Shown here: piece after piece, positions 1 through 57,437 of the stretch
Layout: the number at the start of each line of letters is the position of its first letter
Numbering within the stretch: position 1 is the stretch's first letter
DNA from: Desulfomonilia bacterium
Lineage (GTDB): Bacteria > Desulfobacterota > Desulfomonilia > UBA1062
DNA length: 64,000 nucleotides
Assembly (NCBI GenBank): GCA_036567785.1
Contig: DATCTV010000002.1
Span: 87,038 to 151,037, forward strand
Direction of reading: 5' to 3'
Position numbers and translations under genes: made by a program
The notes under the pieces: generated by a model
Told to the model about the DNA's origin: nothing
The model's input: only the letters and a program-made list of their open reading frames with translations
Database searches by the model: none

Positions 1-99
1 GACAGTCGAATTCTTGGCCGGGCTGGTGGAAAGGATGCAGCCGGCAAGGCTTGCAGCCAGTATGGTAATAAGGGATATGAGAACCAGTTTCCTTTTCAT
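1..99 (-). CDS. N-terminus of a surface lipoprotein (truncated by window edge)
   Basis: Only the first 33 codons are inside the window. They encode a type II signal peptide: MKRK, a hydrophobic core, then the lipobox LAGC followed by ILSTSP. The mature protein should therefore be a membrane-anchored lipoprotein. A clear AGGAGG lies at 104-109, just before the ATG at 97-99. The CILSTSP segment after the lipidated cysteine closely matches CIISTSP, CILSSTP and CILSTDP in the three large repeat lipoproteins upstream on the same strand. It is therefore probably a fourth member of that family; its repeat type cannot be seen. Confidence 0.75.
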   Translation of the reverse strand, partial: MKRKLVLISLITILAASLAGCILSTSPAKNSTV

Positions 100-219
100 T
101 GCATCCTCCTGAAAAATTTATCTGCATGCGGCCCGAAAAGGCCACATGCATCCATTTTTAAAGCGTCTGAAATTTTTGTTTGCCCAACTTTTATCAAAGC
201 TTCCTCTCATCAAATCTTC

Positions 220-252
220 AGGGGAAGGCTCACGCCTTCCCCTATGTTTTTT
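220..252. terminator. GC-rich hairpin downstream of the giant PKD lipoprotein gene
   Basis: A 10-bp perfect stem (AGGGGAAGGC / GCCTTCCCCT, 220-229 with 234-243) closes a 4-base loop 20 bp past the stop of the 263-6652 gene. On the plus strand it is followed by a T run (247-252). In the direction of the flanking minus-strand genes the T run precedes the stem, so it is not a textbook intrinsic terminator for them. It may be a 3'-end stabilising or rho-assisted structure. Confidence 0.55.
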
Positions 253-262
253 CCAACTACAT

Positions 263-3200
263 TTAATCCCATATTGTGACGGAGATATCGTCGGAGTACA
301 TAGCATGGGATATCCAGGTTGCTCCGCCTGTGCCGTTCATCCTGAGATTGATATTCGTGACTACCCGGTTGGGAGCCCATGTGTACTGTGTCCAAGAGTT
401 TTTACCTGGATAATGGACACGTTCGGTAGTACCCTCGAAGATACCCGCCAGGTCAGCCGGAAACTTTTGTGAAGTAGGAGTATAGAACCAGGCGCTTACC
501 GATATTACGAATTTGCCAGTATAATTGGTCATGGAGCTATAGCCTGAACCGCAATTGCCAAGGGTATTATTGCAGTCCTCTATATGATAACCATATGACC
601 CCGAGCGTTTTTGGGCAGTATCAACTGCGCATGTGCCCATGTTCGAACTGGTATACAAAGTCCATGCGTTGCCACCGCTGTCCAAATTGGAAGGAGCCTC
701 CCAACTTGTTGTGTATGTGGCCTGGGACGTGGTGAGGATTATCGTGTCGGCAGCACTGCTCACTGTGCCGTCATCCACAATAAGCTGGATGGTATATGAA
801 CCTGGCAGGTCAAGCGTGATGGTCGGGTTCACAATCGTGGTGCTGGATAGTGTAGCTGAGCTACCTGTGGGTCTTGAAGTTACCGACCATGAATATGTCA
901 AAGTATCGCCATCCAGGTCTGAGCTCCCGCTACCGCTGATTTGCACAGTCCGGTTGGCGTATTTGACAGCGGTTTGGTCTGCCCCTGCATTTGCGGTCGG
1001 CGCCCGATTTGGCACACTCAAGGTCATGGTGTCTGTGCCACTTGCTGTGCCGTCGCTCACGTTCAATTGCAGGACATACGTACCCTTGCTGGTTGGTGTG
1101 AAGGTCGGTCCGGGTATATTGGGGTTGGAGAACTGGGCGCTACTCAGGTTCGGACCGGAAGAGACAGACCATGTATAAGTCAGGGTGTCTCCGTCAGCAT
1201 CGCTTCCGCTGCCGGCCAGAGTGGTTGCCTGGCCCTTGTAAGTCGATTGGTCGTTGCCAGCCTCGGCCGTCGGTGCACGGTTGGGAACGGTCACGGTCAG
1301 AGTGTCTGTAGCATTCGCCGTGCCGTCGCTTACTGCCAGCTGCAGCACATAAACGCCTTTGCTGTTCGGTGTAAAGGTCGGGCCCGCAATGCTGGGATTG
1401 GAGAATTGGCTGGCGCTTGTGTTGGGTCCGGAAGAGACAGACCATGAATAAGTCAGGGTGTCTCCGTCAGCATCGCTTCCGCTGCCGGCCAGAGTAGTTG
1501 CCTGGCCCTTATAGAGCGGATTCACGTCAGGGCCGGCCTCGGCAGTCGGTGCGCGGTTAGGTACGGTCACTGTCAGAGTGTCGGTAGCATTCGCCGTGCC
1601 GTCACCAACTGTCAGCTGCAGTACATAAACACCCTTGCTGTTCGGTGTAAAGGTCGGACCCGCAATGCTGGGATTGGAGAACTGGCTGGCGCTTGTGTTG
1701 GGTCCGGAAGAGACAGACCATGCATAAGTCAGGGTGTCTCCGTCAGCATCGCTTCCGCTGCCGGCCAGAGTGGTTGCCTGGCCCTTGTAGAGCGGGTTCA
1801 CGTCAGGGCCGGCCTCGGCAGTCGGTGCGCGGTTGGGTACGGTAATGATCATGGTGTCGGTCACGGTGTTGACGCCGTCTGTTACGCTCAGCTGAAGCGT
1901 GAACGAACCCTTCCTGTCAGGTGTGAAGCTGGTGCTGAAGCTGTTCGGGCTCACTGGCTGCGCAGTGCTGCCTGACGGTCGGACTGTCACTGTCCATGTC
2001 GGCGTAAGTGTCTGGTTCTCCGGGTCGGTTGCGCTGCCGGTGAGTGTTGTTGTCTGGTCCTTGTAGACTGTCTGATCGTTTCCGGCATTGACCGTCGGCG
2101 CGACATTGTAGGCCGTTATCGTTACATAATCTGCAGTGCTGAGATGCAGCCCGTCTGATACGACCAGACTGATCAGGTAATCACCAACCTTGTCCGGAGT
2201 GAGCGTAGGCGTGACCGATGTAGGATTAGCAATGATGGCGCTGCTTCCGGAAGGTGACGATACAATCGTCCACGAATATGTAAGGTTGTCGTTCTCAGGG
2301 TCGTGGCTTCCGCTGCCGTCAAGGGTAGCTGTTGCGCCGAGCCCGTCGAAGAAAAGGTTCTGGTCGGGACCTGCCTCGGCGGTCGGCGCCTCATTGGGAA
2401 CTGTCACAGTAACATTGTCGGTTACGCTGTTGACACCGTCGGATACGGTCAGGGTAACCACGTAATCACCAGTCTTATCTGGTGTGAAGCTCGGAGTCAG
2501 GCTTGCAGCATTAGATAGAGTTGCATTGCTGCCTGTCGGCCTTGAAGTAAACACCCAGGAGTATGTCATCGGCTGTGATTCAGGATCGGACGCACTCCCG
2601 ATCAATGTCACCAGTGTGTTCCATTGAGCCGTCTGGTTATTGCCCGCCTCAACTGTCGGCGCTACGTTATAGGCTGTGATCGTCACTGAATCAGCTGCGC
2701 TCACGTTGACGCCGTCGGAAACGACAAGGCTGATCAGGTAGGTGCCCTTCATGTCTGGAGTCAGCATCGGCTTCTCCGCATTGGGGTCAGAGAGCGAGGC
2801 GCTGCTGCCAACCGGAGCGCTGACAATAGTCCAGTGATAGGTCAGCGGGTCGTTCTCAGGATCGTGGCTTGCGCTTCCATCAAGCGTTGCGGTCAGGCCC
2901 GTGCCGAAGAAGATGTTCTGGTCGGTACCCGCATCCGCAATAGGCGTATTGTTAGGAACAGTTACGGTGACGCTGTCAGATGCTGTGTTGACGCCGTCTG
3001 ATACTGTAAGTGTGATTATGTACACACCCGTCTTGTCAGGTGTGAAGCTGGGGCTGACGGTCGTGGCACCCGTAAGCGTTGCATTGCTGTTGGTCGGCCT
3101 TGATGTGAAGGCCCATGAATAGGTCAGTGCGTGCAGCTCGGGATCATAGCTTCCACCGCCGTTCAGCGTTACGAGAGTATTCCATGCTGCGGTCTGATTG

Positions 3201-6200
3201 TCGCCGGCCTCGGCATGCGGTGCCTGGTTTGTCGCATTTATGATAACGGTGTCCGGTGAGCTGAACAGTTCGCCGTCGGATACGACTAGGCTTACCGTGT
3301 ATGAACCTTCCTTGTCGGGCAGGAATGTGGGGTTGACTATTGTTGAGTTGGATAGTGCCGCAGTGCTGCCTGCCGGGCGCGATGTAATTGTCCAAGCATA
3401 GGTGAGCGTCGTGTCCGGATCCTGGTCTGAGCTGCCGCTTCCGTCAAGATGAGCCACATCGCCATAGCCGTAAACAAGGCTGATGTCGCTTCCCGCATTG
3501 GCCGTCGGGGCATGGTTAGATGCAGTAATTGTGACCGTGTCAGAAGAACTCGTGTTGACACCGTCGGAAACCACCAGGCTGATAACATAGGCGCCGGACT
3601 TATCAGCAACAAAGGTCGGGGCTATGGTGTCTGCACCTGCAAGTGCCGCAGAGCTTCCTGACGGAGTGGAAATCATAGTCCACGCATAGGTCAGGGTATG
3701 GCCCTCAGGGTCGGTGCTCCCGCTGCCGTTCAGATGCACAGTCTGGTTGAAGGAGACATTCTGGTCAGGACCGGCGTTTGCTGTGGGCGGATCATTATAT
3801 GCAGTCACCTTTACCGTATCAGGGGTACTGTTCAGGTATCCGTCGTTCACGGTCAGACTGATGGTATAGTCTCCCTTCTTATCAGGTACGAATGACGGGT
3901 TGACCGTGCCGGGATTGGTAAGGTCTATGACGCTTTGGGGCGGAGCGGTCAATATCACCCATGAGTATGTCAGGCTGGAGCCGTCGGGATCCGAGCTTGC
4001 GCTGCCGTTGAGTGTGGCAGCCGCCCCGTAGCCGAAGATTACGCTCATGTCAGGTCCTGCATCCGCAATCGGGAAGTGGTTTATGACCGTGATCGTGAGG
4101 GTGTCCGCAGCGCTGCTGAAGGCCCCGTCGGATACCACGAGGCTGATTACATATACACCTACCTTGTCGGGAGAGAAGGTAGGATTCATCAGCGTCGGGT
4201 TGGATATGAGGGCAGTACTCCCGGCAGGGGCTGAATCGACATTCCAGAAGTATGAAACGATCAGGGAGCCATTGGGGTCGAAGCTGGCGCTTCCATCGAG
4301 GTTTGCAGTCTTTCCGGGGAAGCCGAGTTCCTGGTCCGCTCCGGCTATTGCCATTGGGGCATCTCCCACCGTCACGGTGACGGCATCGGGAGTGCTGTAA
4401 TCGTACCCGTCGAACACGACAAGTGTAATAACATACTGCCCTTCCTTGTCAGGGGTCAGGCTTGGATTTACACTATTCGGGTTGGTAAGTGAGGCATGGC
4501 TGCCGGAAGGTGCCGTTACTATCGTCCACGCATAGGAAAGCGGCAGACCTGAAGGTGCATGGCTGGCGTCTCCGTTGAAGTTTGCCGTTATTCCGGGGAA
4601 GCTGATGGACTGGTCAGGGCCGGCCTCTGCCGTAGGGGCATTGTTGATTGCGGTTATTGTAAGGCTGTCAGGGGCACTGTAAAGGTCGCCGTCTGAGGCT
4701 ACAAGACTGATCACATATATACCGGGCAGATCGGGTTTTATCGACGGATTTACCACGTTTGCGTCCGGGAGAAGCGCCGCTGTGCTGCCGTAAGGTGCAC
4801 TTGTTACCGTCCAGTGATAGCTTAGCGTGGTGCCTTCATCCGGGTCTGAGCTGGCACTGCCGTCAAGATGGACCGTCTCGCCGGAGCCGAATGTGAAGCT
4901 GTAGTCAGGTCCGGCCTCAGCTGTCGGTGCATTATTGTAAACATTGATCGTCATTGTATCCTGCATGCTGTCAGTCTCGCCGTCGTTTACGGTAAGCCCG
5001 ATAACATAAGTGCCCTTTACGTCCGGCGTGAATGTCGGGTTGGCTATTGTGGTGCTGGAAAGCGCTGCGCTGCTGCCTCCCGGACATGAGATGATCGTCC
5101 ACTTGTATGTCAGCGGGTCGCTGTCAGCGTCTGTCCCGCTGCCGTTCAGATGAGCTGTGCGGAAGAAGATCAGGTTGATGTCGTCACCAGCCTCGGCAAC
5201 AGGGGCATGGTTTGTAGTCGTGACTACCACATCATCAGGCGCGCTTGACAGGAGTTCGTTATCAGTAACCACCAGGCTCAGAGTGTAGATACCCTTCCTG
5301 CTGGGGGTGAATACGGGTCTTGCGGCAGATGAACTCGAGAGCTGTCCCATGCTTGTGTCAGGACCTGACTTTATTGTCCATGCATATGTCAGGGGGTCGC
5401 CGTCAGGGTCCGAACTGGCGCTGCCATCTAGATGAGCGGACTGCCCGAATTCGATCGTGACATCAGCCCCGGCATTGGCCACCGGTACATTGTTCGATGA
5501 TGTCACAATCACCGAAGCATTGGCCGAGAGATCGCCATCGCTCACGGTCAGCGTGAACACATAGGCACCCTTTTTATCAGGGGTAAAAGTTGGCGCCGGG
5601 CTATAAGGATCAGAGAGTACAGCCATACTTCCTGCAGGAGCTGTAGTACGTACCCAGGAGTACGACAGGGCGTCTCCGTCCGGGTCAGAGCTTGCACCTC
5701 CGTTGAGCCTTGTAGTTTCGCCCTGTAGGATTGTCACATCGAGGCCGGCATTGGCAATCGGGGCATTGTTGGTCACCATGACAGTAAGAGTGTCCTTGCC
5801 GCTCGAAAGTTCTCCATCACTAACTATAAGTCCAATCACATAGGTACCTGTCTTGTCAGGAACGAATGTGGGCGATACGGTTGTTGGATTGGCGATCCAC
5901 GCCGCGCTGCCCGATGGTTTTGATTCTATCGTCCAGGCATATGAAAGCGCCTGATTTTCAGGGTCCGTGCTCCCCGAGCCGTTAAACGTCACAGTTCTGA
6001 AGATGTGAACAGTCTGGTCAGGGCCTGCATCGGCAGTGGGCGGATAATTGAGGATGTATGCACTGACAGTCGCGGTATCAGTTGCTGTTTTTACGCCATC
6101 GCTTACTATAAGCTGTATCGTATATCCTCCGACCTTGTCAGGAGTGAATGTCGGTCTTGCGGTATAGGGGTTTACAATGGAGGCAGTGCTGGCGGCAGGG

Positions 6201-6652
6201 CGGGTAAGAACAGACCATGTATAGGTCAGGGGCTTGCCTTCAGGGTCATAGCTGGCGCTGCCGTTGAGGTTTACGACGCTGCCCAGTGTAACAGGTGCAT
6301 ACGTGCCTGCTTCGGCAACCGGCGGCATATTATCAATAACATTCACGTTCCATTGCTTTGAAATGATATTGCCTGTAAGCTTGTCCTTTGTCTGCACCTT
6401 GAGTATGAATATCCCGGTATCTTCTTCCAGGGCGGTATAGGTGTAGGAAGCCTCCGTAATCCCGGGGATTACTACATTGTTTTTGGACCATTCATAAGGG
6501 CCGTTCATTGAACCTTTCACGGAAAAGGTCTGTGATGCACCTATATGTATGGAAACCGGTGTTGTGGTAGAAGGACTAGTGGAAATTATACAGCTGCTCA
6601 ACCACAAAGTGACAATAGATACCACAGCTAGAAATATTACATTCCTTTTCAT
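263..6652 (-). CDS. Giant surface lipoprotein with 20 PKD-type repeats
   Basis: 2129 residues, no enzyme motif. The N-terminus is a lipoprotein signal (lipobox LSSC near residue 21). Next comes an Ig-like module of about 85 residues containing NGPYEWSKNN. Then follow 20 PKD/K319-type beta-sandwich repeats of about 90-95 residues, each with an xAxAGxD opening, SxDPxGxxLTYxW core, PxFxPDxxGxY and LxVxDG strands. The last ~150 residues (from about 1975) are different: a cysteine-containing jelly-roll-like domain ending in SVTIWD that resembles carbohydrate-binding modules. PKD repeats usually act as rigid extracellular spacers or adhesion modules, so a stalk presenting a C-terminal binding domain is the likely role (inference). 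The start has a purine-rich GGGGGG stretch before the ATG. Repeats 17 and 18 are near identical. Confidence 0.85.
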   Translation of the reverse strand: MKRNVIFLAVVSIVTLWLSSCIISTSPSTTTPVSIHIGASQTFSVKGSMNGPYEWSKNNVVIPGITEASYTYTALEEDTGIFILKVQTKDKLTGNIISKQWNVNVIDNMPPVAEAGTYAPVTLGSVVNLNGSASYDPEGKPLTYTWSVLTRPAASTASIVNPYTARPTFTPDKVGGYTIQLIVSDGVKTATDTATVSAYILNYPPTADAGPDQTVHIFRTVTFNGSGSTDPENQALSYAWTIESKPSGSAAWIANPTTVSPTFVPDKTGTYVIGLIVSDGELSSGKDTLTVMVTNNAPIANAGLDVTILQGETTRLNGGASSDPDGDALSYSWVRTTAPAGSMAVLSDPYSPAPTFTPDKKGAYVFTLTVSDGDLSANASVIVTSSNNVPVANAGADVTIEFGQSAHLDGSASSDPDGDPLTYAWTIKSGPDTSMGQLSSSSAARPVFTPSRKGIYTLSLVVTDNELLSSAPDDVVVTTTNHAPVAEAGDDINLIFFRTAHLNGSGTDADSDPLTYKWTIISCPGGSSAALSSTTIANPTFTPDVKGTYVIGLTVNDGETDSMQDTMTINVYNNAPTAEAGPDYSFTFGSGETVHLDGSASSDPDEGTTLSYHWTVTSAPYGSTAALLPDANVVNPSIKPDLPGIYVISLVASDGDLYSAPDSLTITAINNAPTAEAGPDQSISFPGITANFNGDASHAPSGLPLSYAWTIVTAPSGSHASLTNPNSVNPSLTPDKEGQYVITLVVFDGYDYSTPDAVTVTVGDAPMAIAGADQELGFPGKTANLDGSASFDPNGSLIVSYFWNVDSAPAGSTALISNPTLMNPTFSPDKVGVYVISLVVSDGAFSSAADTLTITVINHFPIADAGPDMSVIFGYGAAATLNGSASSDPDGSSLTYSWVILTAPPQSVIDLTNPGTVNPSFVPDKKGDYTISLTVNDGYLNSTPDTVKVTAYNDPPTANAGPDQNVSFNQTVHLNGSGSTDPEGHTLTYAWTMISTPSGSSAALAGADTIAPTFVADKSGAYVISLVVSDGVNTSSSDTVTITASNHAPTANAGSDISLVYGYGDVAHLDGSGSSDQDPDTTLTYAWTITSRPAGSTAALSNSTIVNPTFLPDKEGSYTVSLVVSDGELFSSPDTVIINATNQAPHAEAGDNQTAAWNTLVTLNGGGSYDPELHALTYSWAFTSRPTNSNATLTGATTVSPSFTPDKTGVYIITLTVSDGVNTASDSVTVTVPNNTPIADAGTDQNIFFGTGLTATLDGSASHDPENDPLTYHWTIVSAPVGSSASLSDPNAEKPMLTPDMKGTYLISLVVSDGVNVSAADSVTITAYNVAPTVEAGNNQTAQWNTLVTLIGSASDPESQPMTYSWVFTSRPTGSNATLSNAASLTPSFTPDKTGDYVVTLTVSDGVNSVTDNVTVTVPNEAPTAEAGPDQNLFFDGLGATATLDGSGSHDPENDNLTYSWTIVSSPSGSSAIIANPTSVTPTLTPDKVGDYLISLVVSDGLHLSTADYVTITAYNVAPTVNAGNDQTVYKDQTTTLTGSATDPENQTLTPTWTVTVRPSGSTAQPVSPNSFSTSFTPDRKGSFTLQLSVTDGVNTVTDTMIITVPNRAPTAEAGPDVNPLYKGQATTLAGSGSDADGDTLTYAWSVSSGPNTSASQFSNPSIAGPTFTPNSKGVYVLQLTVGDGTANATDTLTVTVPNRAPTAEAGPDVNPLYKGQATTLAGSGSDADGDTLTYSWSVSSGPNTSASQFSNPSIAGPTFTPNSKGVYVLQLAVSDGTANATDTLTVTVPNRAPTAEAGNDQSTYKGQATTLAGSGSDADGDTLTYTWSVSSGPNLSSAQFSNPNIPGPTFTPTSKGTYVLQLNVSDGTASGTDTMTLSVPNRAPTANAGADQTAVKYANRTVQISGSGSSDLDGDTLTYSWSVTSRPTGSSATLSSTTIVNPTITLDLPGSYTIQLIVDDGTVSSAADTIILTTSQATYTTSWEAPSNLDSGGNAWTLYTSSNMGTCAVDTAQKRSGSYGYHIEDCNNTLGNCGSGYSSMTNYTGKFVISVSAWFYTPTSQKFPADLAGIFEGTTERVHYPGKNSWTQYTWAPNRVVTNINLRMNGTGGATWISHAMYSDDISVTIWD
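1261..1812 (-). repeat. Recent tandem duplication of a 276-bp PKD repeat unit
   Basis: Two head-to-tail units (1261-1536 and 1537-1812) have exactly the same 276-bp period and encode repeats 18 and 17 of the giant lipoprotein. The encoded 92-residue units differ at only a few positions (YSW/YAW, LAVSDG/LTVGDG). A third, shorter unit at about 988-1260 is clearly related but more diverged. The other 17 repeats are far less alike, so this block looks like a recent in-frame expansion. Confidence 0.85.
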
Positions 6653-7057
6653 AACCCCCCCTGGAAATGTATTTGTTGTATGTAGAGTTCTGTAGTTAAC
6701 AGATCAGAAAATCCGGAATTTTTTTTACCCTGAATAAGGAAATTGAGAGGCAGGCTGAATTTTTCTTCCCCTGGAATCCTCATAAATTCAATAAACATAT
6801 GACCTCTATAAATAAGATGTCATATAGTACAAAATCTTGGGAAATAGACCCCATATAAAAAAAGGAAAATGAAAACTGAATATAAATAGTTTTCTTAATT
6901 ATATATAGATATTTAATTAATGATTTAATTTGTATATGTCAATATTTTAATTTACAGTCTTAAAAAGGTTTTATGTTTCTCACAGCAGATAAACTGAAAG
7001 AAAGCTGGCGGGAGACCCAAAAAAGGTCTCCCGCTAATTATAGACTTTATAACCTTG
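6653..7057. other. AT-rich intergenic region, no gene
   Basis: This 405-bp gap between two minus-strand lipoprotein genes holds no convincing coding sequence. It is very AT-rich at about 6840-6960 and should contain the promoter of the giant lipoprotein gene, but I see no clear -35/-10 pair. The hairpin at 7008-7034 is annotated separately. Confidence 0.6.
7008..7034. terminator. Hairpin downstream of the PASTA-repeat lipoprotein gene
   Basis: A perfect 10-bp stem (GCGGGAGACC / GGTCTCCCGC, 7008-7017 with 7025-7034) sits 23 bp past the stop of the 7058-9163 gene. The loop is T-rich on the gene's strand. No long T run follows the stem in that direction, so it may stop transcription weakly or protect the 3' end. 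Confidence 0.6.
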
Positions 7058-9163
7058 CTAGAAACCAAAAGCATGGCCGTTGAGCGTTTCACCATTGTAT
7101 ATTACAGAAGTTGTACCTGTCTGAGGTTCCTGGTTCACTATTGGAATCGAAATATTCGTAAACTTGCCAGCAAAATTACCTGTGAATGCAATCGAACCTG
7201 TTAATGTGCCGTTGCCGCTCAAGGAAACTGTACCGCTGGCCGAGCCGTTCATGATCATTCTCCTGGTCCCGTTGCAGTCAATGGTGCCGGGAGGGTAGAT
7301 GAAATTCTGAGAATCGATATAATTTGTGAATGTTACTGTGAGAAGACCACTCAGTCCGCTCTGGGTTACTGTAAAGTGAACATTCCCGTCACCGCACGGA
7401 TCATAGTATGTTTCATTGGTTCCTAAACCAACGCTCGGGTCCTGAAGCATGACCCTTGTCAAAGGATTCCCGGCTGTCAGTTTCGCGACAGTGAAGAATT
7501 CTTCCAGGGTATAGTCCATACGACCCTGGTCATAGTTGCTGAATTCGCTATTGGTGAACATTGGCGATGAACTGCAGGCCTTGACTTTAAAATACCTGTA
7601 ATTCTTGAAGGCGCTCAGTATAGGACGTGCTGCAAGTTCATAAGCGTCAAGGGCAGCAATTGTGAGTGGTGACGGCAAAACCGGGAGGTTGAGTGTTTCA
7701 GTCTGCATGACGTCATATGATGTGGCAGGTGCTGTGGCCGATCCCACAAGAGTGTATGTGCCTTCAGGGGTGTCGGAACTGTATATATCATAGGATGTCG
7801 CATTCGTAACCGCATTCCAGGTTACCCTGATCTTGTTGTTAAAATTATGGTTCAGGAGAGGATTCGTGACTGAGGTCAGCACAACATCCGAGGCCTGTAC
7901 ATTCTGAGGCGGCGGAAGTTGTGTCGTACATATGCCGCTGGAGATGACCAGTGTCACTGTGGAACCTGGATCTACAAGTGTTCCTGCAGCCGGAGACTGG
8001 CTTATAACACCGCTGGCGGGCACTGTATTATTACAAACTGTGCTCGTTTCGCATACCAGACCTGCAGCCTCAATCTGGGCACAACTCGTTGCATTAGGAA
8101 CCGCAAGAGTACAACCCCCGCTCGATATCTTCAGATTAACCGTGGAACCCGGCTGTACGCCTGTCCCAGCGGGCGGACTCAAGCTTATTACACCACTTTC
8201 GGGCACTGTATTGCTGCACACCGTTGTCTGAAGGCATCTCAACCCGGCTGCCTCGATTTCAGCGCAGGACGTGGCTGCAGGAATTATCACCGGACACGGG
8301 CCGTTTGATATATTCAGCACTACTGTAGAACCGCCAAGTACCATCGTGCCCGGTGCAGGAGACTGGCTTACAACATGACCGGCCGGTACCGTATTGTTGC
8401 ACACAGAGGTAGTGCTGCATACAAGTCCGGCGTTTGTGAGGTCGGAACAGTTCGTAGCCGCCGGCACGGGTATCTCTGTCGTGCATGAGCCGCTCGACAT
8501 GGTCACTGCAACCGTTGTGCCGGGATAGACCATTGTACCCGCTGCAGGGTACTGGTTGACTATCTGGCCAAGAGGAATCTCCTCGCTGCACTCGGTGTAC
8601 AGGGTCGGGCTGCATATAAGGCCTGCCGCCTCAATATCTTCACAGGTCTCGGCTTCCGGAACCGGAATCTCTACCGTACATGGCCCGCTCGAAATTCTCA
8701 GGGTTACTGTTACGCCTGCTTTTACCATTGTACCTGCAGCCGGAGACTGGCTGATCACATGGCCTTCAGGGACTGTACCGCTGCAGCTCAATTCCGTGTT
8801 GCATACCAGGTTTGCAGCCATGATATAGCCGCAGTTCAAGGCTAGAGGGACTTTTACCATTGGGTCGGTTACCGTAACGGTCCATGAACGCTCAGCCTCA
8901 GGGAATATGCTGAATTTGGCCTTTACCTTGACCACATAAACGCCCTTGGGATGTATCTGAAATGTGTAGCTGGAGTTCGTTTCACCAGGCTGGGCAATAT
9001 CGTCAATATACCACTGAATTTTGCCACGGGCATTGACACTAAAATCCTGGCTTGTGCCCCATGTCAAAGATATGGGACCCTCAGGTGGGGTGGATGATAA
9101 GATGCATCCTGTAAGAACAAGAAGCGGTATCATGACCGGAAGGAGCTTAATGATTCGCTGCAT
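7058..9163 (-). CDS. Lipoprotein with five cysteine-bearing PASTA-like repeats
   Basis: 701 residues with a lipoprotein signal (lipobox LTGC near residue 20). An Ig-like N-terminal module follows that matches the one in both neighbouring PKD lipoproteins. Residues of about 105-430 are five PASTA-like repeats with the typical xAGLxC, QSPAAGTxVxxGxxVxLxIS pattern. Each has four cysteines at equivalent places: two flanking the AGL helix, one in the short loop and one at the end. This suggests disulphide-stapled extracellular domains. Next come a fibronectin-III-like segment (about 435-560) and a C-terminal beta-rich domain. PASTA domains are best known from Ser/Thr kinases and penicillin-binding proteins, where they can bind cell-wall muropeptides; no kinase or transpeptidase part exists here. 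Start supported by GGAGG upstream of the ATG at 9161-9163. Confidence 0.8.
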   Translation of the reverse strand: MQRIIKLLPVMIPLLVLTGCILSSTPPEGPISLTWGTSQDFSVNARGKIQWYIDDIAQPGETNSSYTFQIHPKGVYVVKVKAKFSIFPEAERSWTVTVTDPMVKVPLALNCGYIMAANLVCNTELSCSGTVPEGHVISQSPAAGTMVKAGVTVTLRISSGPCTVEIPVPEAETCEDIEAAGLICSPTLYTECSEEIPLGQIVNQYPAAGTMVYPGTTVAVTMSSGSCTTEIPVPAATNCSDLTNAGLVCSTTSVCNNTVPAGHVVSQSPAPGTMVLGGSTVVLNISNGPCPVIIPAATSCAEIEAAGLRCLQTTVCSNTVPESGVISLSPPAGTGVQPGSTVNLKISSGGCTLAVPNATSCAQIEAAGLVCETSTVCNNTVPASGVISQSPAAGTLVDPGSTVTLVISSGICTTQLPPPQNVQASDVVLTSVTNPLLNHNFNNKIRVTWNAVTNATSYDIYSSDTPEGTYTLVGSATAPATSYDVMQTETLNLPVLPSPLTIAALDAYELAARPILSAFKNYRYFKVKACSSSPMFTNSEFSNYDQGRMDYTLEEFFTVAKLTAGNPLTRVMLQDPSVGLGTNETYYDPCGDGNVHFTVTQSGLSGLLTVTFTNYIDSQNFIYPPGTIDCNGTRRMIMNGSASGTVSLSGNGTLTGSIAFTGNFAGKFTNISIPIVNQEPQTGTTSVIYNGETLNGHAFGF

Positions 9164-9231
9164 GTTAAACCTCCGTAAATAATAAAAAGCCTTAATAGCT
9201 GGCCTTTACTGCAAACCCTATTGCAAATGTA

Positions 9232-9254
9232 GGGAAGGACTGACAGTCCTTCCC
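9232..9254. terminator. Hairpin between the two repeat-lipoprotein genes
   Basis: A 9-bp GC-rich stem (GGGAAGGAC / GTCCTTCCC, 9232-9240 with 9246-9254) lies about 20 bp past the stop of the gene ending at 9273. A T run follows on the plus strand only. It resembles the structure at 220-243 in position and composition. Confidence 0.55.
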
Positions 9255-9272
9255 ACTCATTTTTATTAAGCT

Positions 9273-11711
9273 TTAATCCCAGACAGTGAAAACGATGTCG
9301 TCAATAAAAACTCCGTCGGTGCCCCAAAAGCTGTCGAAATAGAATCCAACCTTTGTGATAGCCATATCTGGGGTGTAGCTTTTCAAATACCATGTGTTTC
9401 CGCTGTCTCCTCGAATATCCGCATACTTGCTGTTATTAAAGTAAAGGGACGTTTTGAGGGCGCTCATATTTGCCGCATAGCCGCGGAACTGGAAACTTAT
9501 CTGGATGAGATAGGTGTTGGTGAATGTCCTGCTAAGCATGAGCGTGTTTCCACCGGCCCATGCACCCTGTGCCCAGAAGCTGTAGTTTCCGGAATAAGGC
9601 TCCTCATCATCGACATTTATGGTGCCCCAGCTTCCGCTGCTATCCTTGCTCCAAGGTGCGAGCACACCATCATCCCAATTTTCAACAATCGTTTCCTGGA
9701 ATGTAGTAAGGGTTACCGTGTCGGCAGCACTGTTTACCGTGCCGTCGTTCACTATGAGCTGGATTATATATGTTCCCGGTTTGTCTGGCTTGAAGGTAGG
9801 GTTCACGATGTTGGCATTGGAAAGCGCCGCCGTACTCCCGGAAGGTCTGCTTGTTACCGACCATACATAGGTCAGCGGGTCGCCGTCAGGATCCATGCTT
9901 GCGCTTCCGTTGAGCTGCTGCGTGACGTTGTAACGGCAGCCCGGGATGTCAGCGCCCGCATCTGCTGTCGGTGTACGGTTCGATACGGTAACTTTTACCG
10001 TATCGGCAAGACTGTAATCCTGGCCGTCAAACACGATCAGCTGTATTACATAATCGCCTTTTTTATCGGGTACCAAGGTCGGATTTATGATGGCCGGGTT
10101 TGAAAGTGTTGCAACACTGCCAGCAGGACTGGATATGATCGTCCAGGCATAGGTAAGCGGGTCGCCGTCAACATCATAACTGGCGTTTCCGTTAAGATGT
10201 ACCGTGGTATTGACATAACCGAAAGTGTCATTGCCGGCTTCCGCAATTGGCCTGTGGTTGGTGGTGGTGATGGTCATGAAATCCGGTGCACTGTAGAACT
10301 CACCGTCAAATACGATAAGCCTTATCGTGTATACCCCCTGTTTGTCAGGCTTGAACGTCGGTTCCATACCTGTCGGATTAGTAAGTGTTGCAATACTGCC
10401 GCCGGGTCTGTTTGTTATTGCCCAGTCATAAGCAAGTGAGTCTCCATCAGGATCGGAACTGAGAACCCCGGTGAGCATTACTGTACCACCGAAGGCTACG
10501 ATGACATCACTGCCTGCATTTGCTACCGGCGCATGTTTTGTGGTGGAAATCTGAACTGTATCCTCACTGCTCAGGTCGCCGTCGCTTACCACCAGCTTCA
10601 AAATGTATACGCCACGTTTGTCAGGTGTGAAGGTCGGGTTTACTAATGTGGAATTGGTAATCGTTGCAATGCTGCTGGCCGGTGCTGAATTGACCGTCCA
10701 TGTATAGCTTAGTGTTGTTCCATCAGGATCTCCACTTAAGCTCCCATCAAGATAAGCAGTTGAACCGAAATCAACGATTGCATCACTGCCTGCGTTTGCT
10801 ACAGGCGCATTATTGTAAACGGTGATTTTAACGTAACTGAGCCCGCTGCTTGAAGAACCATCATTCACAACCAGACTGAACAGATAATCACCCTTTTTGT
10901 TGGGCATGAAGGTCGGATTGACAATTGTTGGATCAGAAAGCACTGCCTGACTGCCAACCGGTTTATTAACAAGAGCCCAGTAATAAGTCAGCGGATGGCC
11001 TTCAGGATCGTAACTGGAGCTTCCATCAAGCTGAACGACATTGCCAAAGAGCACATTTGCATCAGGACCCGCATTTGATACCGGAGGGATGTTTATGTTG
11101 TAAACATTGACAATAACAATTGACGGGTCACTGGTCTTGACTCCGTCACTTACGTACAGTGAGACTGTGTAAGAACCCTCGACATCGGCTATAAAAGTCG
11201 GATTCACTATGCCGGGATTGGAAAGGGTTGCGGAACTACCAGCTGGTTTAGCTACAATCTCCCAGAGATAGTTGAGCGGCTGGCCTTCGGGGTCACTGCT
11301 CAAGCTTCCATCAAGTTGCACAAGATCAGAACCGGTAAAAGGATGAATATTTATCGGCGATGATCCTGCGTTCGCAACAGGCGGGAGGTTGTTGATGACA
11401 TTCACGGTCCATTCCTTGACCAATGTCTTTTGGTTGAGCTGGTCCTTTGTCTCAACCTTGATTTTGTTCATACCGTTGTCTTCAGCAACAGCGGTATAGG
11501 TATAGGATGTGCCGGTAGCCCCCGGAATGACTGTGTTATTTTTGTACCATGCATAGGGACCGTTCATCATTCCCGAAACCTTGAACGTCTGGGAGTCTCC
11601 CACCTTCAACGCTACAGATGTTGCAGGATTGGGATCGGTGCTTAAAATACATCCGCTGACACCAGCAACCATAACTGAAATCAGAAACACAAGAATTACA
11701 TTTCGCTTCAT
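9273..11711 (-). CDS. Surface lipoprotein with six PKD-type repeats
   Basis: 812 residues from the ATG at 11709-11711, chosen because a strong GAGGAG lies just upstream and the signal peptide MKRNVIL then starts at residue 1; an in-frame ATG 27 bp further upstream lacks such a site. It has a lipobox VSGC, the shared Ig-like module with NGPYAWYKNN, six PKD/K319-type repeats and a C-terminal domain of about 140 residues ending in FTVWD. That domain has the look of a jelly-roll binding module (FIDDIVF near the end) and parallels the one in the giant paralogue. The protein is a short version of the 263-6652 protein, probably a cell-surface adhesin or glycan-binding stalk (inference). Confidence 0.83.
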   Translation of the reverse strand: MKRNVILVFLISVMVAGVSGCILSTDPNPATSVALKVGDSQTFKVSGMMNGPYAWYKNNTVIPGATGTSYTYTAVAEDNGMNKIKVETKDQLNQKTLVKEWTVNVINNLPPVANAGSSPINIHPFTGSDLVQLDGSLSSDPEGQPLNYLWEIVAKPAGSSATLSNPGIVNPTFIADVEGSYTVSLYVSDGVKTSDPSIVIVNVYNINIPPVSNAGPDANVLFGNVVQLDGSSSYDPEGHPLTYYWALVNKPVGSQAVLSDPTIVNPTFMPNKKGDYLFSLVVNDGSSSSGLSYVKITVYNNAPVANAGSDAIVDFGSTAYLDGSLSGDPDGTTLSYTWTVNSAPASSIATITNSTLVNPTFTPDKRGVYILKLVVSDGDLSSEDTVQISTTKHAPVANAGSDVIVAFGGTVMLTGVLSSDPDGDSLAYDWAITNRPGGSIATLTNPTGMEPTFKPDKQGVYTIRLIVFDGEFYSAPDFMTITTTNHRPIAEAGNDTFGYVNTTVHLNGNASYDVDGDPLTYAWTIISSPAGSVATLSNPAIINPTLVPDKKGDYVIQLIVFDGQDYSLADTVKVTVSNRTPTADAGADIPGCRYNVTQQLNGSASMDPDGDPLTYVWSVTSRPSGSTAALSNANIVNPTFKPDKPGTYIIQLIVNDGTVNSAADTVTLTTFQETIVENWDDGVLAPWSKDSSGSWGTINVDDEEPYSGNYSFWAQGAWAGGNTLMLSRTFTNTYLIQISFQFRGYAANMSALKTSLYFNNSKYADIRGDSGNTWYLKSYTPDMAITKVGFYFDSFWGTDGVFIDDIVFTVWD

Positions 11712-11832
11712 TGTATCCTCCTCACTCTTATTTGACATGCAATCTCCAAGGATGCAGCCTGTTTACAGTCAAAAATATGTTCAAGAAAATCAATCATCTG
11801 TGAAAAAACCATTGATAACCCCCCTCATCCAG

Positions 11833-11861: not shown

Positions 11862-11977
11862 ATACAAATAAATCAGCACTAATCAAATTTATCGACCTCA
11901 TACAGATTTTTAAAAAATAAATTATATAATTATATCACTATAATATAAATCAATTAGAGTTTGTCAACCTCAATTAC

Positions 11978-12676
11978 TTAATTTTTCTCAATAGAAGCAT
12001 GGGGGTATCCGTTTACGATACCGCTGCTGAGACAGACATTATAACTGGCATCTCCGGTTCTTATTATAATGTTATCATTATCAACGGCTATAATCTCATT
12101 CGGGTAGCAGTCGTTATCATTCGGTATAAAACTCGTGACCTTTTTCAATATGCGGATGCCCCTGATTGTCTCTACTGCAACCGTCATCTCGGATTGATAT
12201 TCAGAATTCACGGTTCCCGTGATGACCATTCTTCCGTCCGGAAGAAAAGCCGCCATCTGGTTAGCAACCGCATATTCGCAGGAACCTTCAGATGATTGTG
12301 AACCTGTCGTCAGAAAGGCCTCGGCAGGCAACGGATTAATTTTTACATGAAGATCGTCTGATGCGCTTATTGTTACAATATAGACAATTTCTACGGTAAG
12401 TTCCGCAGTATAGTCACCTGGTTCAGTATAAACATGTGTTGCCGTGATTCCATCTTCACCGGTTCCATCGCCGAAATCCCAGTATGCTTCCCGTTGAAAT
12501 AGTCCACCCTTTACAGAGCAGGTGCCGTCAAAATCTATTGTATCGCCAACATAAGCGGTTTTATCCTCTCCTGCATCGACTTTGAGCATCCCCCCGTCAT
12601 TTTTCATTTTAATGCTGCTGCACCCGGTTGCAAGCGTGATTATAATGATAGCCGTAAGAATATTTGTTCTCATCAT
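11978..12676 (-). CDS. Small lipoprotein with a single classic PKD domain
   Basis: 232 residues from the ATG at 12674-12676, which puts the signal peptide (MRTNIL, hydrophobic core, lipobox LATGC) at the front. A TTG 36 bp upstream would add a polar stretch before it, and neither start has a good ribosome site. Residues of about 35-110 form a true PKD domain with the WDFGDG signature and HVYTEPGDY. The remaining ~120 residues are not recognised; they hold PDGRMVITG and two cysteine-containing segments. Unlike its neighbours it lacks the NGPYxW Ig-like module, so it is a distant relative. It is divergent from the operon at 12830, and the two share a 153-bp promoter region. Confidence 0.7.
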   Translation of the reverse strand: MMRTNILTAIIIITLATGCSSIKMKNDGGMLKVDAGEDKTAYVGDTIDFDGTCSVKGGLFQREAYWDFGDGTGEDGITATHVYTEPGDYTAELTVEIVYIVTISASDDLHVKINPLPAEAFLTTGSQSSEGSCEYAVANQMAAFLPDGRMVITGTVNSEYQSEMTVAVETIRGIRILKKVTSFIPNDNDCYPNEIIAVDNDNIIIRTGDASYNVCLSSGIVNGYPHASIEKN

Positions 12677-12751
12677 TTTGAAAGCATTCGCATAATTCAG
12701 AGGTTTAATCAATCAAACAGTACAGTCTATTTTCACACTTTAAAATCACGC

Positions 12752-18837: not shown

Positions 18838-19704
18838 TTACAATGGCGTTGCCTTCAAATCATTGACCTTTCGAGCAATGCAGGCTGCAATGAAGAACAT
18901 CCATATTATTAGCCCTATGTGCAGAACGTCATTTGCACAGAACCATATACCCTGTTTCCAGAGTTTTTCTGTCAGGCCTGAAAATAAATAGACGAAATAG
19001 GCCATGTTAATGATGCCAAGAGAGAACCAGACAATCATCAGCGTCAGCTCCTGACGCTCCCTCGTTCTGATATACCGCCTGGTGTTGATTACAAAGAGAG
19101 CGATAAAACTCGGGGTTGTGAAAAGAACCATGAGTTCGAATGAGACCATCATCTTATTCGGGATAAAGGCCCCTGTCAGGACAATGGCTAGATAAACGAT
19201 TGTATTTGCTGCAGCATAGCATGAAAGCGCCCGTCGCAAGCCCCATTCGGCGCTGGAGAATGCAACGCCCTTGACGATTGCATTTATACTGATGACCGTG
19301 AATATAAGGTAGTACACTTCCCACCAGCTGGTCCAGGCACAGACAGCTCTGCCGGCGCACTTTATCTCATAGCTGAAGGCCTGATAGCTGGTCCCTGCAA
19401 GGATCGCCCCTGCTCCCCAGAAGATGAGGCCAATTCCCCACCACAGCCGCGATTTTTCATTTTCCCTGAATTTAAGGGCATAAAATCCTGTCAGAACAGT
19501 CAGAATTCCAAGAAAATAGATAAAGAATGTAGAACTGGGAACTGCAAGGACAAAATGCATCGAACCGATGGAAATATCCGTACATGGCTGGATAAGTCGC
19601 CATGTTTCAGGTGTCTGCTCCGGACAGCAGTAGGGTATCGTCTGCAGCCTGCCACAGGCTGACAGGCTTATTAAAGAAATGATCGACGCAGAGATACGCT
19701 TCAT
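18838..19704 (-). CDS. Seven-transmembrane protein with lipobox-like N-terminus, function unknown
   Basis: 288 residues from the ATG at 19702-19704, with AGAGG upstream; a GTG one codon earlier is possible. The N-terminus (MKRISAS, hydrophobic, LSAC) looks like a lipoprotein signal. A short periplasmic part with CCPEQ and a lone Cys follows, then seven hydrophobic helices. Between helices 2 and 3 is a [17 protein letters not shown] segment with two cysteines. I do not recognise the family with certainty; the layout resembles uncharacterised 7-TM families. It follows the 19720-21855 lipoprotein gene by 15 bp and is probably co-transcribed with the two M19-like lipoproteins. Confidence 0.65.
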
Positions 19705-19719
19705 CACACCTCTAGTGTT

Positions 19720-21855
19720 TCAGCGGTTTTCCACACGCTCCCACATCTCGATATATCCCTCGGCAGAACGGTAAAGCGGCTTAAGTTCCTCATCCGTGAG
19801 CCCGAGATTCTTGAGGTCGGCCACGAAATCCGGGATCAGGCCATAACAGGCGATACCCTCGGTATTAAAGTCAAAGACGCGGTTTCCGGCCTTCAGCTGA
19901 TTGAACTCACCGGTGCCGCCTACAGGATTTTTGAAGGGATATACAAGCGGATTGGTGGCGGGCGTCTCAGGCGGATTGCCGTCACAGGCCCGGCTACCGA
20001 AACGCGGACCAGGCTGCTTGCACATGCCGTTCACGTCGGAGCCGTATGGAATTGCAACCGGATACGGGCTCTGACTCATCACCCTCACCGCATTCTTATA
20101 TGATTGAGCCCAGGACTCGGACGATATCGCACATCCTCCGTGCTTCTCCTGGTAAAGCATCAGGGATACGATACCTCCGAGATTGAATATTCTTGTGGCA
20201 TACTGCCAGGTTATGCTCCCGTCAGGCGGGTCTATCCAGCTGTGGCTTGCTATTACCGGGTAACGCTCCTCCTCGCAGATCGAGAGCGCTTTGAATGCCA
20301 TCTTATGGCTCATGTGGTCTGTTTCTATTATCATCTTCTTCTTTATCATCTCCCGGATGAAGAATTCACCTATGTCAGTAAGTCCTCTTTTGTTGTCTGA
20401 CGATCTCATTCCGGCCGGATAATAGGGCACTACCGACCCGATTAGCGGCGCAAGCATTTTAAATAAAGGATTATCAGGATATGAGAACGAAGGTTCCTTA
20501 TAGGTAAACGAAGGGTCGCTGCATTCCTCGAACTCGAAATATGACCCTCTTAGCAGGCGGTTTCCAAGATTCGGGATCACCGGCACCCAGACATTGGTCC
20601 CTCCGAAGGCATTGTTGAAAATATGGATGGGGAAGATGCTCCTTACACCCTTGTCGCGGTAAACCTGAAGCTGATCGGCAATATATTGCGGGTCGACTTT
20701 GTTCTCGTCTGCCGCGTTGAAAAGGGTTGCTACCTCAATGCCCAGGACGATGGCAAGCTTGCCGTCGGCAATTACATCCCGAGCCTCTTTGGGGGAATAA
20801 ACAATGCGGAACCAGCCTTTGCCCGGACCTCCGCACTGGGCGTCTATGTAGTTTTCAAGACTCTTCACCTCATTCAGCTGACGGTCAACCGCGTTCATGT
20901 CGTTGCAGTCATAGCCGGGCAGACTGCCGTATATGCGGCACAAAAGCTCGTTGCTCACACAATGCACAACAGCCAGCCTCAAGCCGCCGAGGTATGCACG
21001 CTCTAGCCATCTGTAGTATACCATCTGATGCGTCATTGCGTTGTTGTAGGGCCAGTATTTGAAGTCGGGCCAGCCACTGGTATCGTGCCGGAGACGCCCC
21101 TCGGTCAGGTTGCCGATGAGGTCGTTTGCTCCGTTTTTCCCATGTATGTATGAACAATCCGGCAGAGCCCTGCTCACACCGAGCGGACTGAAATTCCTTC
21201 CGATTACCAGCTTGCCGCCAAAGCCCTCGTTGGCGCACAGATGAAGATGCGTATCGGCAAAACCGACTAGATTCTCTTTTGAGGGTTGCTTCATCGCTAC
21301 AGCATCGGTGCTGATGTCCGCTTCAGGGAACGGGGTGCATTTTTCAGCAGTCTCTATTGTGAATTCAGACGCCTGGCCCCTGACGCCGGAGAGGTACAGT
21401 CGGCCGTCATTTGCGTCGGCTGCAAGCCACATGTTTCCTTTATAAGGCCTGAACGCAAAACGGTCATTACCAAGAGAGACGAATTCCCACATGGTATTAT
21501 CATCAAGGGTTGATGTCCTTATTACATTTTTGTCCGCATCGATACTCAGATATCTGGCCCCTTTATCATAAAGCATATAGACGCCGAGATATGCCGGCTT
21601 CATGAAAAATGAGGAGGCCTTGCTCCGGTTTTCAGCTGATGCCGCATAACCGGTTGACGTGGACAGGATGAAACTGCCGTTTGCAGCCGACCTCAGGGCA
21701 TAGCAGCCATTGGCGAAATCATATACGGTCTTCGCTGCGGCAGTGTTTTCTGTATTTGTTTTACCATCCGATGACTCTGAGTCTGTGTTGTCGGTACTGC
21801 AGCCTGCAAGTATCAGCAGTAAGATAACTGCAATGCAATAGTTCTTCATGTTCAT
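19720..21855 (-). CDS. Lipoprotein: beta-trefoil-like domain plus M19 dipeptidase-like hydrolase
   Basis: 711 residues from the ATG at 21853-21855, 5 bp after GAGGAG; an upstream GTG is two codons earlier. Lipobox LAGC near residue 20. Residues of about 45-170 form a repetitive beta-rich region (GCYALRSAANGSFI, ARYLSID) that looks like a fascin or ricin-type trefoil. The rest follows the renal-dipeptidase (M19) pattern: HxH in ADTHLHL, the bridging Glu in VLGIEV, PIHIFNN, ETDHMSH, ASHSW and GSDVNG. M19 enzymes cleave dipeptides, often with a D-residue at the C-terminal side. Several spacings depart from the family, so the substrate may differ. Tandem paralogue of the next gene upstream. Confidence 0.7.
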   Translation of the reverse strand: MNMKNYCIAVILLLILAGCSTDNTDSESSDGKTNTENTAAAKTVYDFANGCYALRSAANGSFILSTSTGYAASAENRSKASSFFMKPAYLGVYMLYDKGARYLSIDADKNVIRTSTLDDNTMWEFVSLGNDRFAFRPYKGNMWLAADANDGRLYLSGVRGQASEFTIETAEKCTPFPEADISTDAVAMKQPSKENLVGFADTHLHLCANEGFGGKLVIGRNFSPLGVSRALPDCSYIHGKNGANDLIGNLTEGRLRHDTSGWPDFKYWPYNNAMTHQMVYYRWLERAYLGGLRLAVVHCVSNELLCRIYGSLPGYDCNDMNAVDRQLNEVKSLENYIDAQCGGPGKGWFRIVYSPKEARDVIADGKLAIVLGIEVATLFNAADENKVDPQYIADQLQVYRDKGVRSIFPIHIFNNAFGGTNVWVPVIPNLGNRLLRGSYFEFEECSDPSFTYKEPSFSYPDNPLFKMLAPLIGSVVPYYPAGMRSSDNKRGLTDIGEFFIREMIKKKMIIETDHMSHKMAFKALSICEEERYPVIASHSWIDPPDGSITWQYATRIFNLGGIVSLMLYQEKHGGCAISSESWAQSYKNAVRVMSQSPYPVAIPYGSDVNGMCKQPGPRFGSRACDGNPPETPATNPLVYPFKNPVGGTGEFNQLKAGNRVFDFNTEGIACYGLIPDFVADLKNLGLTDEELKPLYRSAEGYIEMWERVENR

Positions 21856-21945
21856 AGCCACTCCTCAAAGATGAGAATTCTAATCTGACATTCATATAGC
21901 TATCAAATACCCTCTGCCACACGGGATTTTATTAATTTGATGAAG

Positions 21946-55927: not shown

Positions 55928-57127
55928 TTATCCCATATGCTGAATTAATTGTTTTGAATTTCTCCATTTTCTAGTTCTCTGCACCTTTCTTCTGAAAAAT
56001 TCCCCGAATGGATCATTATGATTTGATTTATCACCTATAATGATTCCGAACACCTTTGATGCATTAAGGTAATTGGCCTTTTTTCTTTCCGAATATTTGA
56101 ATCGTCCGGTTTCAACGGCTTTATTCATATTGCATAGAATAGTCAGAACCTGAGAAATATGCGCCATTACAACCTTTGGGATCTGAATCTGAATGCCAGC
56201 TTTTATCATCTCATCATGAAGCATTTTTGACTTATCCTGGCTTTCTGAATTTTTACCGACAACATGTCTAGCCCACGGCCAGAATATGATTGTAAAAATA
56301 TCCTGAATTGGGATATCTTCTCCTGATATATTTAGAATATCTATTGTTTTTAAATAGTTGAACAGCTCAGAGGTCTCAAACTGATTATCCGAATAAAATC
56401 GGCCAATATCCCCCAGAAGACATGGCAATATCCCGAAAAGATCAAGCTGGAAAAAAACAGGCATCAGAAAACCAGATTTTATGTCTTTACATATCTCCTC
56501 ATACATTCTTGCGCCAGAGCAGTTCTGAAGTAGATCTCTGTGTTGAAATACTTTAGATGCCGTTTCATGATGAATTCTGAAATTTTGTCTTGAAGAATGC
56601 CTTAAAACTCTTAAAATTCTGACAGGGTCTTCTTTGAATCTTTTATCAGGATCACCGATTATCCTTATTATTCCTTTATTTATATCATTCAGACCGCCAA
56701 CATAATCAATTACACTGAAATCAGCAATGTCATAAAAAAGGGCGTTGATAGTGATGTCTCTGCGGTGGGCATCTTCTTCCGGGGTTCCGAATGTATTGTG
56801 AATATCCTCATTACTTCCTTCTTCAGGTTCTCTTCTGAATGTTGCAACTTCAATAACTTTATTACCTTTGAATCTGATATGGGCTAGTTTGAAACGTCGT
56901 CCTATCAAAAACGAATTGGAAAACAGCTTTTTTATCTGGCCGGGTCTCGCATCTGTGGCAATATCATAATCATTCGGCTTCTTACCAAGCAGAATATCCC
57001 TTACCGCTCCTCCTACGAGATAAGCCTTGAATCCATTACGGTTAAGCCTGTACAGGACTTTCAGAGCATCTTCATCAATGTCTCTTCTTGAAATATTATG
57101 AAATGATCTTCGAAGTATCTTCGCCAT
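55928..57127 (-). CDS. pcnB: Poly(A) polymerase I-type nucleotidyltransferase
   Basis: 399 residues. Class II nucleotidyltransferase head: LVGGAVRDILLGKKPNDYDIATDA (catalytic Asp pair) and LIGRRFKLAHIRF, then RRDITINALFYD and DPVRILRVLRH. The early HNISRRDIDEDALKVLYRLN and the RRFKLAH motif favour poly(A) polymerase over CCA-adding enzyme, and both tRNA genes in the window already encode CCA. It adds 3' A tails that speed RNA decay. It lies 32 bp inside the end of yacG, so the two are coupled. Confidence 0.75.
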   Translation of the reverse strand: MAKILRRSFHNISRRDIDEDALKVLYRLNRNGFKAYLVGGAVRDILLGKKPNDYDIATDARPGQIKKLFSNSFLIGRRFKLAHIRFKGNKVIEVATFRREPEEGSNEDIHNTFGTPEEDAHRRDITINALFYDIADFSVIDYVGGLNDINKGIIRIIGDPDKRFKEDPVRILRVLRHSSRQNFRIHHETASKVFQHRDLLQNCSGARMYEEICKDIKSGFLMPVFFQLDLFGILPCLLGDIGRFYSDNQFETSELFNYLKTIDILNISGEDIPIQDIFTIIFWPWARHVVGKNSESQDKSKMLHDEMIKAGIQIQIPKVVMAHISQVLTILCNMNKAVETGRFKYSERKKANYLNASKVFGIIIGDKSNHNDPFGEFFRRKVQRTRKWRNSKQLIQHMG

Positions 57128-57360: not shown

Positions 57361-57437
57361 TGGCGCGCCCAAGAGGATTCGAACCTCTGACCTTTGGATT
57401 CGTAGTCCAACGCTCTATCCAACTGAGCTATGGGCGC
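57361..57437 (-). tRNA. tRNA-Arg (ACG)
   Basis: On the minus strand: acceptor GCGCCCA with TGGGCGC, anticodon loop CTACGAA with ACG (probably modified to ICG), T-arm GGTTCGAATCC, discriminator G and encoded CCA at 57361-57363. 77 nt with CCA. Confidence 0.95.

Follow-up and report, generated by a model that had tools for sequence, protein, structure and literature searches.

Organization of the lipoprotein gene row

The window (the whole 64,000-nucleotide stretch of DNA analysed in this study) begins with a row of minus-strand genes for predicted lipoproteins, A1 to A4, whose features are collected in Table 1. Three are complete open reading frames of 821, 701 and 2,129 aa (9273-11738, 7058-9163 and 263-6652), and the N-terminus of a fourth is present at 1-99. 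For A1, the ATG at 11711, just 3' of a GAGGAGG ribosome-binding site, is preferred over the end of the frame at 11738, and it is also where the original prediction had ended this gene. Sequence to the left of the window completes A4 as a protein of 1,101 aa, with the same N-terminal module (N-module), nine PKD repeats and a related C-terminal domain; beyond it lie genes for a 6-PKD protein and a PASTA protein, and then a phospholipase A1 gene. Four lipoproteins in a row had been described originally, the fourth, cut by the window edge, being credited with a matching start. The minus-strand series and the matching start are real, but the number was too low, as six members are now counted.

Table 1. 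Features of the lipoprotein gene row at the left end of the window.
Feature	Position	Strand	Basis
A1 predicted lipoprotein, first gene of the row: Ig N-module, 6 PKD, C-terminal domain	9273..11711	-	ORF, Pfam PKD, family profile
A1 N-cassette: predicted signal peptide II (11652-11711) and mature Ig domain from the lipidated Cys (11388-11651)	11388..11711	-	A2/A5 alignments, AF2, PDB profile
A1 PKD repeats 1-6	9690..11381	-	profile matches, aa 120-683
A1 C-terminal domain, end IDDIVFTVWD	9273..9701	-	alignment with A3 C-terminus
A2 predicted lipoprotein: Ig N-module, 5 four-Cys PASTA, FN3-like and C-terminal region	7058..9163	-	ORF, Pfam, Cys register
A2 N-cassette: predicted signal peptide, lipobox, Ig domain	8864..9163	-	N-module profile E 2.4e-28; alignment
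A2 five PASTA repeats, 20 Cys in register	7919..8851	-	Pfam, Cys spacing
A2 FN3-like and C-terminal region, common to a MopE-type relative in another genome	7058..7918	-	weak Fn3 profile match, E 0.012
A3 predicted lipoprotein: Ig N-module, 20 PKD, C-terminal domain	263..6652	-	ORF, Pfam, family profile
A3 N-cassette	6332..6652	-	N-module profile E 3.9e-33
A3 PKD repeats 1-20	716..6322	-	profile, repeat tree, DNA tandem repeat
A3 C-terminal domain, end SDDISVTIWD	263..727	-	alignment with A1 C-terminus
A4, fourth gene, 5' end only inside the window	1..99	-	ORF; rest read left of the window
Sigma-70-like promoter 5' of A1, TTGACA-16-TATTAT, 11/12 positions	11940..11967	-	consensus match only
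Terminator-like hairpin, 11 pairs, 3' of A2	7008..7034	-	consensus match only

A gene for a 244-aa lipoprotein with a single PKD domain, lacking the Ig N-module, is found just upstream of the row (11978-12712). Horizontal acquisition of the row is unsupported, since the GC and GC3 values of A1-A3 do not differ much from those of many neighbouring genes.

The shared N-terminal cassette

A lipobox is present in every member of the family, and the genome carries lgt (TIGR00544, 212.7 bits) near a second cluster of such genes; together with the signal peptides, these features predict that the members are bacterial lipoproteins. The mature N-terminus follows the pattern C-[IVL]-x4-P in 33 of 38 members, while the other predicted lipoproteins listed for these loci all lack it. 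Rather than being a separate sorting signal, this motif may have a structural role, as the AF2 model sets its residues in the first Ig strand and two other lipoproteins start in a similar way. The latter, also from this genome (locus L069, 1468-2745, and locus L070, 1501-3108), have a different Ig-like domain, Big_5-like by eye, directly after the similar lipobox, followed in one of them by a propeller-like region, and so represent a parallel design.

The claim that A1, A2 and A3 share both the lipobox context and an Ig-like module was borne out. In a comparison of mature parts, with the signal peptide removed, PKD-type and PASTA-type N-modules proved homologous, with an hhalign probability of 99% and E 4.5e-18; PKD repeats of the family, serving as the control, gave less than 7% probability. 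The N-modules are homologous rather than unrelated folds, and the left-edge gene resembles the other three. A model built by AF2 from four sequences is a seven-strand domain with a mean pLDDT of 91. Searched against the PDB, the N-module profile matched Ig domains of solved structure (best E 5.9e-15), and Foldseek returned mostly Ig-like domains, with TM about 0.6-0.7 over the query length and a best E of 1.3e-3. The N-module is accordingly predicted to have the fold of an Ig domain of the I-set/C2 type. Besides the lipobox Cys there is no conserved Cys pair in the alignment that could form the B-F disulfide typical of Ig domains. No Pfam model exists for the module itself, which scores 17.4 bits with Ig_2, where the gathering score is 27 bits; some copies weakly match the Ig family found at the C-terminus of penicillin-binding proteins. 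The definition of this unnamed cassette allows many unannotated lipoproteins of the group to be recognised.

Repeats and C-terminal domains

The repeat types originally read from the sequence, 20 PKD, five Cys-PASTA and six PKD, were confirmed by Pfam, with PKD-type models above cut-off for 6 repeats in A1 and 20 in A3, and the PKD repeats were also recovered by a family-specific profile. In A3, repeats 17 and 18 are 97% identical and 12/13 pair with 14/15, and its DNA includes a 276-bp tandem repeat at 1068-1861, so that the surplus repeats of A3 stem at least partly from internal duplication. Across A1, A3, A4, A5, B1 and B4, there is a tendency for PKD repeats 1 to 5, and for the last one, to cluster with their counterparts at the same position, many of the forks being weakly supported.

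The PASTA repeats of A2 scored 171 bits against PF03793 over five stretches, far above cut-off, and their PDB matches are PknB-type kinases. In all four PASTA proteins of the genome, 20 of 20 Cys are in register over five repeats, spaced by about 10, 6 and 35 residues within each repeat and deviating by one or two residues. No Ser/Thr kinase or penicillin-binding-protein domain was found in A2. The four-cysteine PASTA is a variant outside these two protein classes. One sister genus shows the four-Cys pattern as well; among the weaker matches in the phylum whose loci were read, a limited test, no frame within the stretch covered passed the filter. A genome of the same family as that of the window (G007) encodes a lipoprotein (locus L100, 469-2532) in which a different N-terminus precedes three PASTA repeats, two of them with four Cys, and three PKD repeats. 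By eye, the C-terminus of this lipoprotein resembles a dockerin, but Pfam reported none there.

The similar C-terminal ends of A1 and A3, first noticed by the motifs TVWD and TIWD, belong to homologous domains with 23% identity and the common end DDI..T[IV]WD, and paralogues link the two. A jelly-roll fold is putative: the AF2 model has a pLDDT of 42, the best PDB profile match is CIP1 (E 0.064), and the domain has no Pfam match.

Copies, partners and distribution

A search for other partners of the N-module, proposed with the original prediction, found the shared module on varied repeat types genome-wide. There are 23 copies in this genome, 17 of them outside the row; 12 lie in two clusters of six and the other 11 are scattered. 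The second cluster, on contig C62, has the order PKD, PASTA, PKD+RCC1, PKD, PASTA, PKD+RCC1. Beyond PKD and PASTA, the N-module is followed by RCC1 propellers (with or without PKD), receptor-L/LRR domains, DGG repeats, LamG, a MopE-type metal-binding centre, or by nothing at all; no catalytic domain following it was recognised by Pfam among the proteins that were scanned. At locus L031 (5152-11754) of the same genome, three proteins with the N-module and receptor-L domains are encoded in series, along with a 254-aa frame that lacks the N-module start.

No other genome searched had more than six N-module matches. The module occurs in 4 of 42 genomes of the class and, in samples of the phylum, in 5 of 297 at a loose limit, these being partly isolated matches inside long unrelated frames, and in 2 of 394 at a strict limit; it is missing from nearly all of the phylum. 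A metagenome-assembled genome labelled 'Proteobacteria bacterium' has matches at three places; among the relatives of it that were sampled, four have one match or more.

Relation to known systems

Literature searches found no papers on such a domain combination. BtuH2 of Bacteroides provides a precedent for N-terminal Ig/PKD domains joined to a C-terminal ligand domain (PMC8941943), and its structure (7biz) was matched by both the N-module profile and Foldseek. Points in common with BtuH2 and related Bacteroides surface lipoproteins are the N-terminal Ig/PKD domains, a C-terminal ligand domain, predicted here, and the occurrence of different N-terminal domains among relatives; as a difference, the present family keeps the N-terminal Ig constant. 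BtuH2 also comes from another phylum, and no homology to the C-terminal domains of the present family was detected. SGBP and SusE/F-like proteins (e.g., 6e57, which was among the Foldseek matches of the N-module) are comparable in having a lipid anchor, all-beta spacers and a distal binding domain, the last being predicted here, but they belong to Bacteroidetes Sus-like loci, and no SusC/SusD or Sus-like genes were found among the part of the neighbours that was scanned. Among phage records, the N-module comes closest to Ig domains from tail fibres, from whiskers and from a Hoc-like protein, and Hoc is also among its PDB profile matches; the likeness to the I-set Ig domains of Hoc-like decoration and tail-whisker proteins amounts to about 38% identity over 93% of the module, although Hoc-like proteins are phage structural proteins without a lipid anchor. 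PknB/Stk1-type kinases and penicillin-binding proteins share the PASTA repeats, but A2 has neither kinase nor transpeptidase, and carries four Cys per repeat in a fixed register.

Origin and possible function of the family

The N-module tree groups by partner: six PKD types from the clusters form one group (support 100/99), the PASTA types and the MopE relative another (96/98), and the LRR types a third (100/99). Changes of partner label on the tree number 14, against a shuffled mean of 26.3, and no value as low was reached in 200 shuffles. With the positional orthology of the PKD repeats, this grouping is explained by tandem duplication of PKD-type and PASTA-type genes with co-inheritance of their partners, an origin of the row that the trees support. 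The module shuffling first suggested for these genes is unsupported as the origin of the row, where N-modules cluster by partner and PKD repeats keep their register, but is real in the wider family, in a few cases, all outside the window.

Exchange of whole modules, which the trees support as rarer than duplication, accounts for several proteins. One from the 'Proteobacteria bacterium' genome has a MopE-type centre between a PASTA-type N-module and a PASTA-type C-terminal region (tblastn E 5e-39). At C62:267.8 kb, a protein with one PKD repeat combines an N-module that is 54% identical to one of the RCC1 type, and at most 36% to PKD types, with a repeat and C-terminus of the PKD type; the swap of an RCC1-type N-module onto a PKD-type body is suggestive, given an AU test p of 0.06 for placing this N-module with the PKD clade. 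In B1, the final PKD repeat clusters with repeats of the RCC1 type (SH-aLRT 94), the RCC1 types are not one clade (p-AU 0.0004), and in the sister genus it is a different N-terminus that precedes four-Cys PASTA and PKD repeats.

The build of these proteins is consistent with outer-membrane lipoproteins that carry a distal head on a stalk, and we infer that they are exposed at the cell surface and bind there. No member has Asp at position +2, which under the E. coli Lol rule (PMC5727369), assumed to be valid here, points to the outer membrane. Both clusters adjoin a gene for an outer-membrane barrel, either phospholipase A1 or an inverse-autotransporter barrel. The latter gene (IAT_beta, 48 bits; locus L028, 7879-8658) is just upstream of the second cluster and a tRNA-Pro, and its 260-aa product leaves little room for a passenger; a tRNA-like stretch between two genes of that cluster was unconfirmed by ARAGORN. 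The export signal of Bacteroidetes surface lipoproteins, C-x-K-(D/E)2 behind the Cys (PMC5080379), is missing from the mature N-termini of the members, in which no known surface-export signal was recognised. A spacer role has been discussed for the all-beta domains of glycan-binding proteins (PMC7157763).

On balance, it is somewhat probable that these genes form a lineage-specific lipoprotein family built on one anchor cassette, which expanded by tandem duplication, repeat expansion and rare swaps into a set of surface-binding stalks. The cassette would fix the protein to the outer membrane and provide the initial spacer, and the stalk, with a length altered by repeat duplication within the gene, would consist of the PKD or PASTA repeats. 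The C-terminal domain or propeller would be the head, with extracellular polymers, surfaces, nutrients or other cells as its binding targets. The family would then be a one-genome case of how long stalks originate, through gene duplication, repeat expansion and rarer module exchange. A wider proposal, by which the lipidated Ig cassette would serve this bacterial group as a dedicated anchor for surface display and any domain behind it would be exported, is tentative and rather unlikely; if true, some 23 interchangeable display stalks, among them a PASTA rod stabilised by disulfides, would have evolved in a single genome.

Several other explanations were considered. Ig-like domains are common, and the two lipoproteins with the Big_5-like domain right after the lipobox could be taken to mean that unrelated lipoproteins recruited such domains independently, the shared N-module being a product of convergence. 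This is very improbable in view of the profile alignment between PKD-type and PASTA-type modules, with its PKD control, and of the invariant residues and start motif that the N-modules share; chance or convergent similarity is refuted for the PKD, PASTA and RCC1 types, similarity being weaker in the LRR and some DGG types. The members might instead be directed towards the periplasm, as tethers between outer membrane and cell wall whose PASTA repeats bind peptidoglycan. Elsewhere, PASTA domains are known to be oriented towards the cell wall, which counts against surface display, and they are the best-known extracytoplasmic wall-sensing domains; the PknB-type PDB matches and the weak resemblance of some N-modules to the Ig family of penicillin-binding proteins also favour a tether. 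However, most members have no PASTA, and the four-Cys variant means that wall binding is not simply transferable. An Ig-like domain is ~4 nm long, so the 21 Ig-like domains in line of A3 would reach ~80 nm if extended, which exceeds the width of the periplasm and counts against placement there, and a wall tether is considered unlikely.

It could also be speculated that the set is maintained for surface variation, such as escape from phages or predators, and not for different ligands. The large expansion in one genome, the recent duplication that left 97% identical repeats in A3, and the resemblance of the Ig domain to those of phage whiskers and Hoc-like proteins would agree with this, but a non-exhaustive search identified no switching features in the row, and the strictly kept Cys spacing of the PASTA repeats speaks for constraint; surface variation is thus regarded as distinctly improbable.

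Other features of the window

Further along the window, at 18838-24483, three lipoproteins are encoded in series, two of them (713 and 845 aa) with a short match to membrane dipeptidase M19, and the third of 289 aa. A gene of markedly low GC (37%, GC3 33%) occurs at 55928-57127, beside a tRNA-Arg at 57361-57437.
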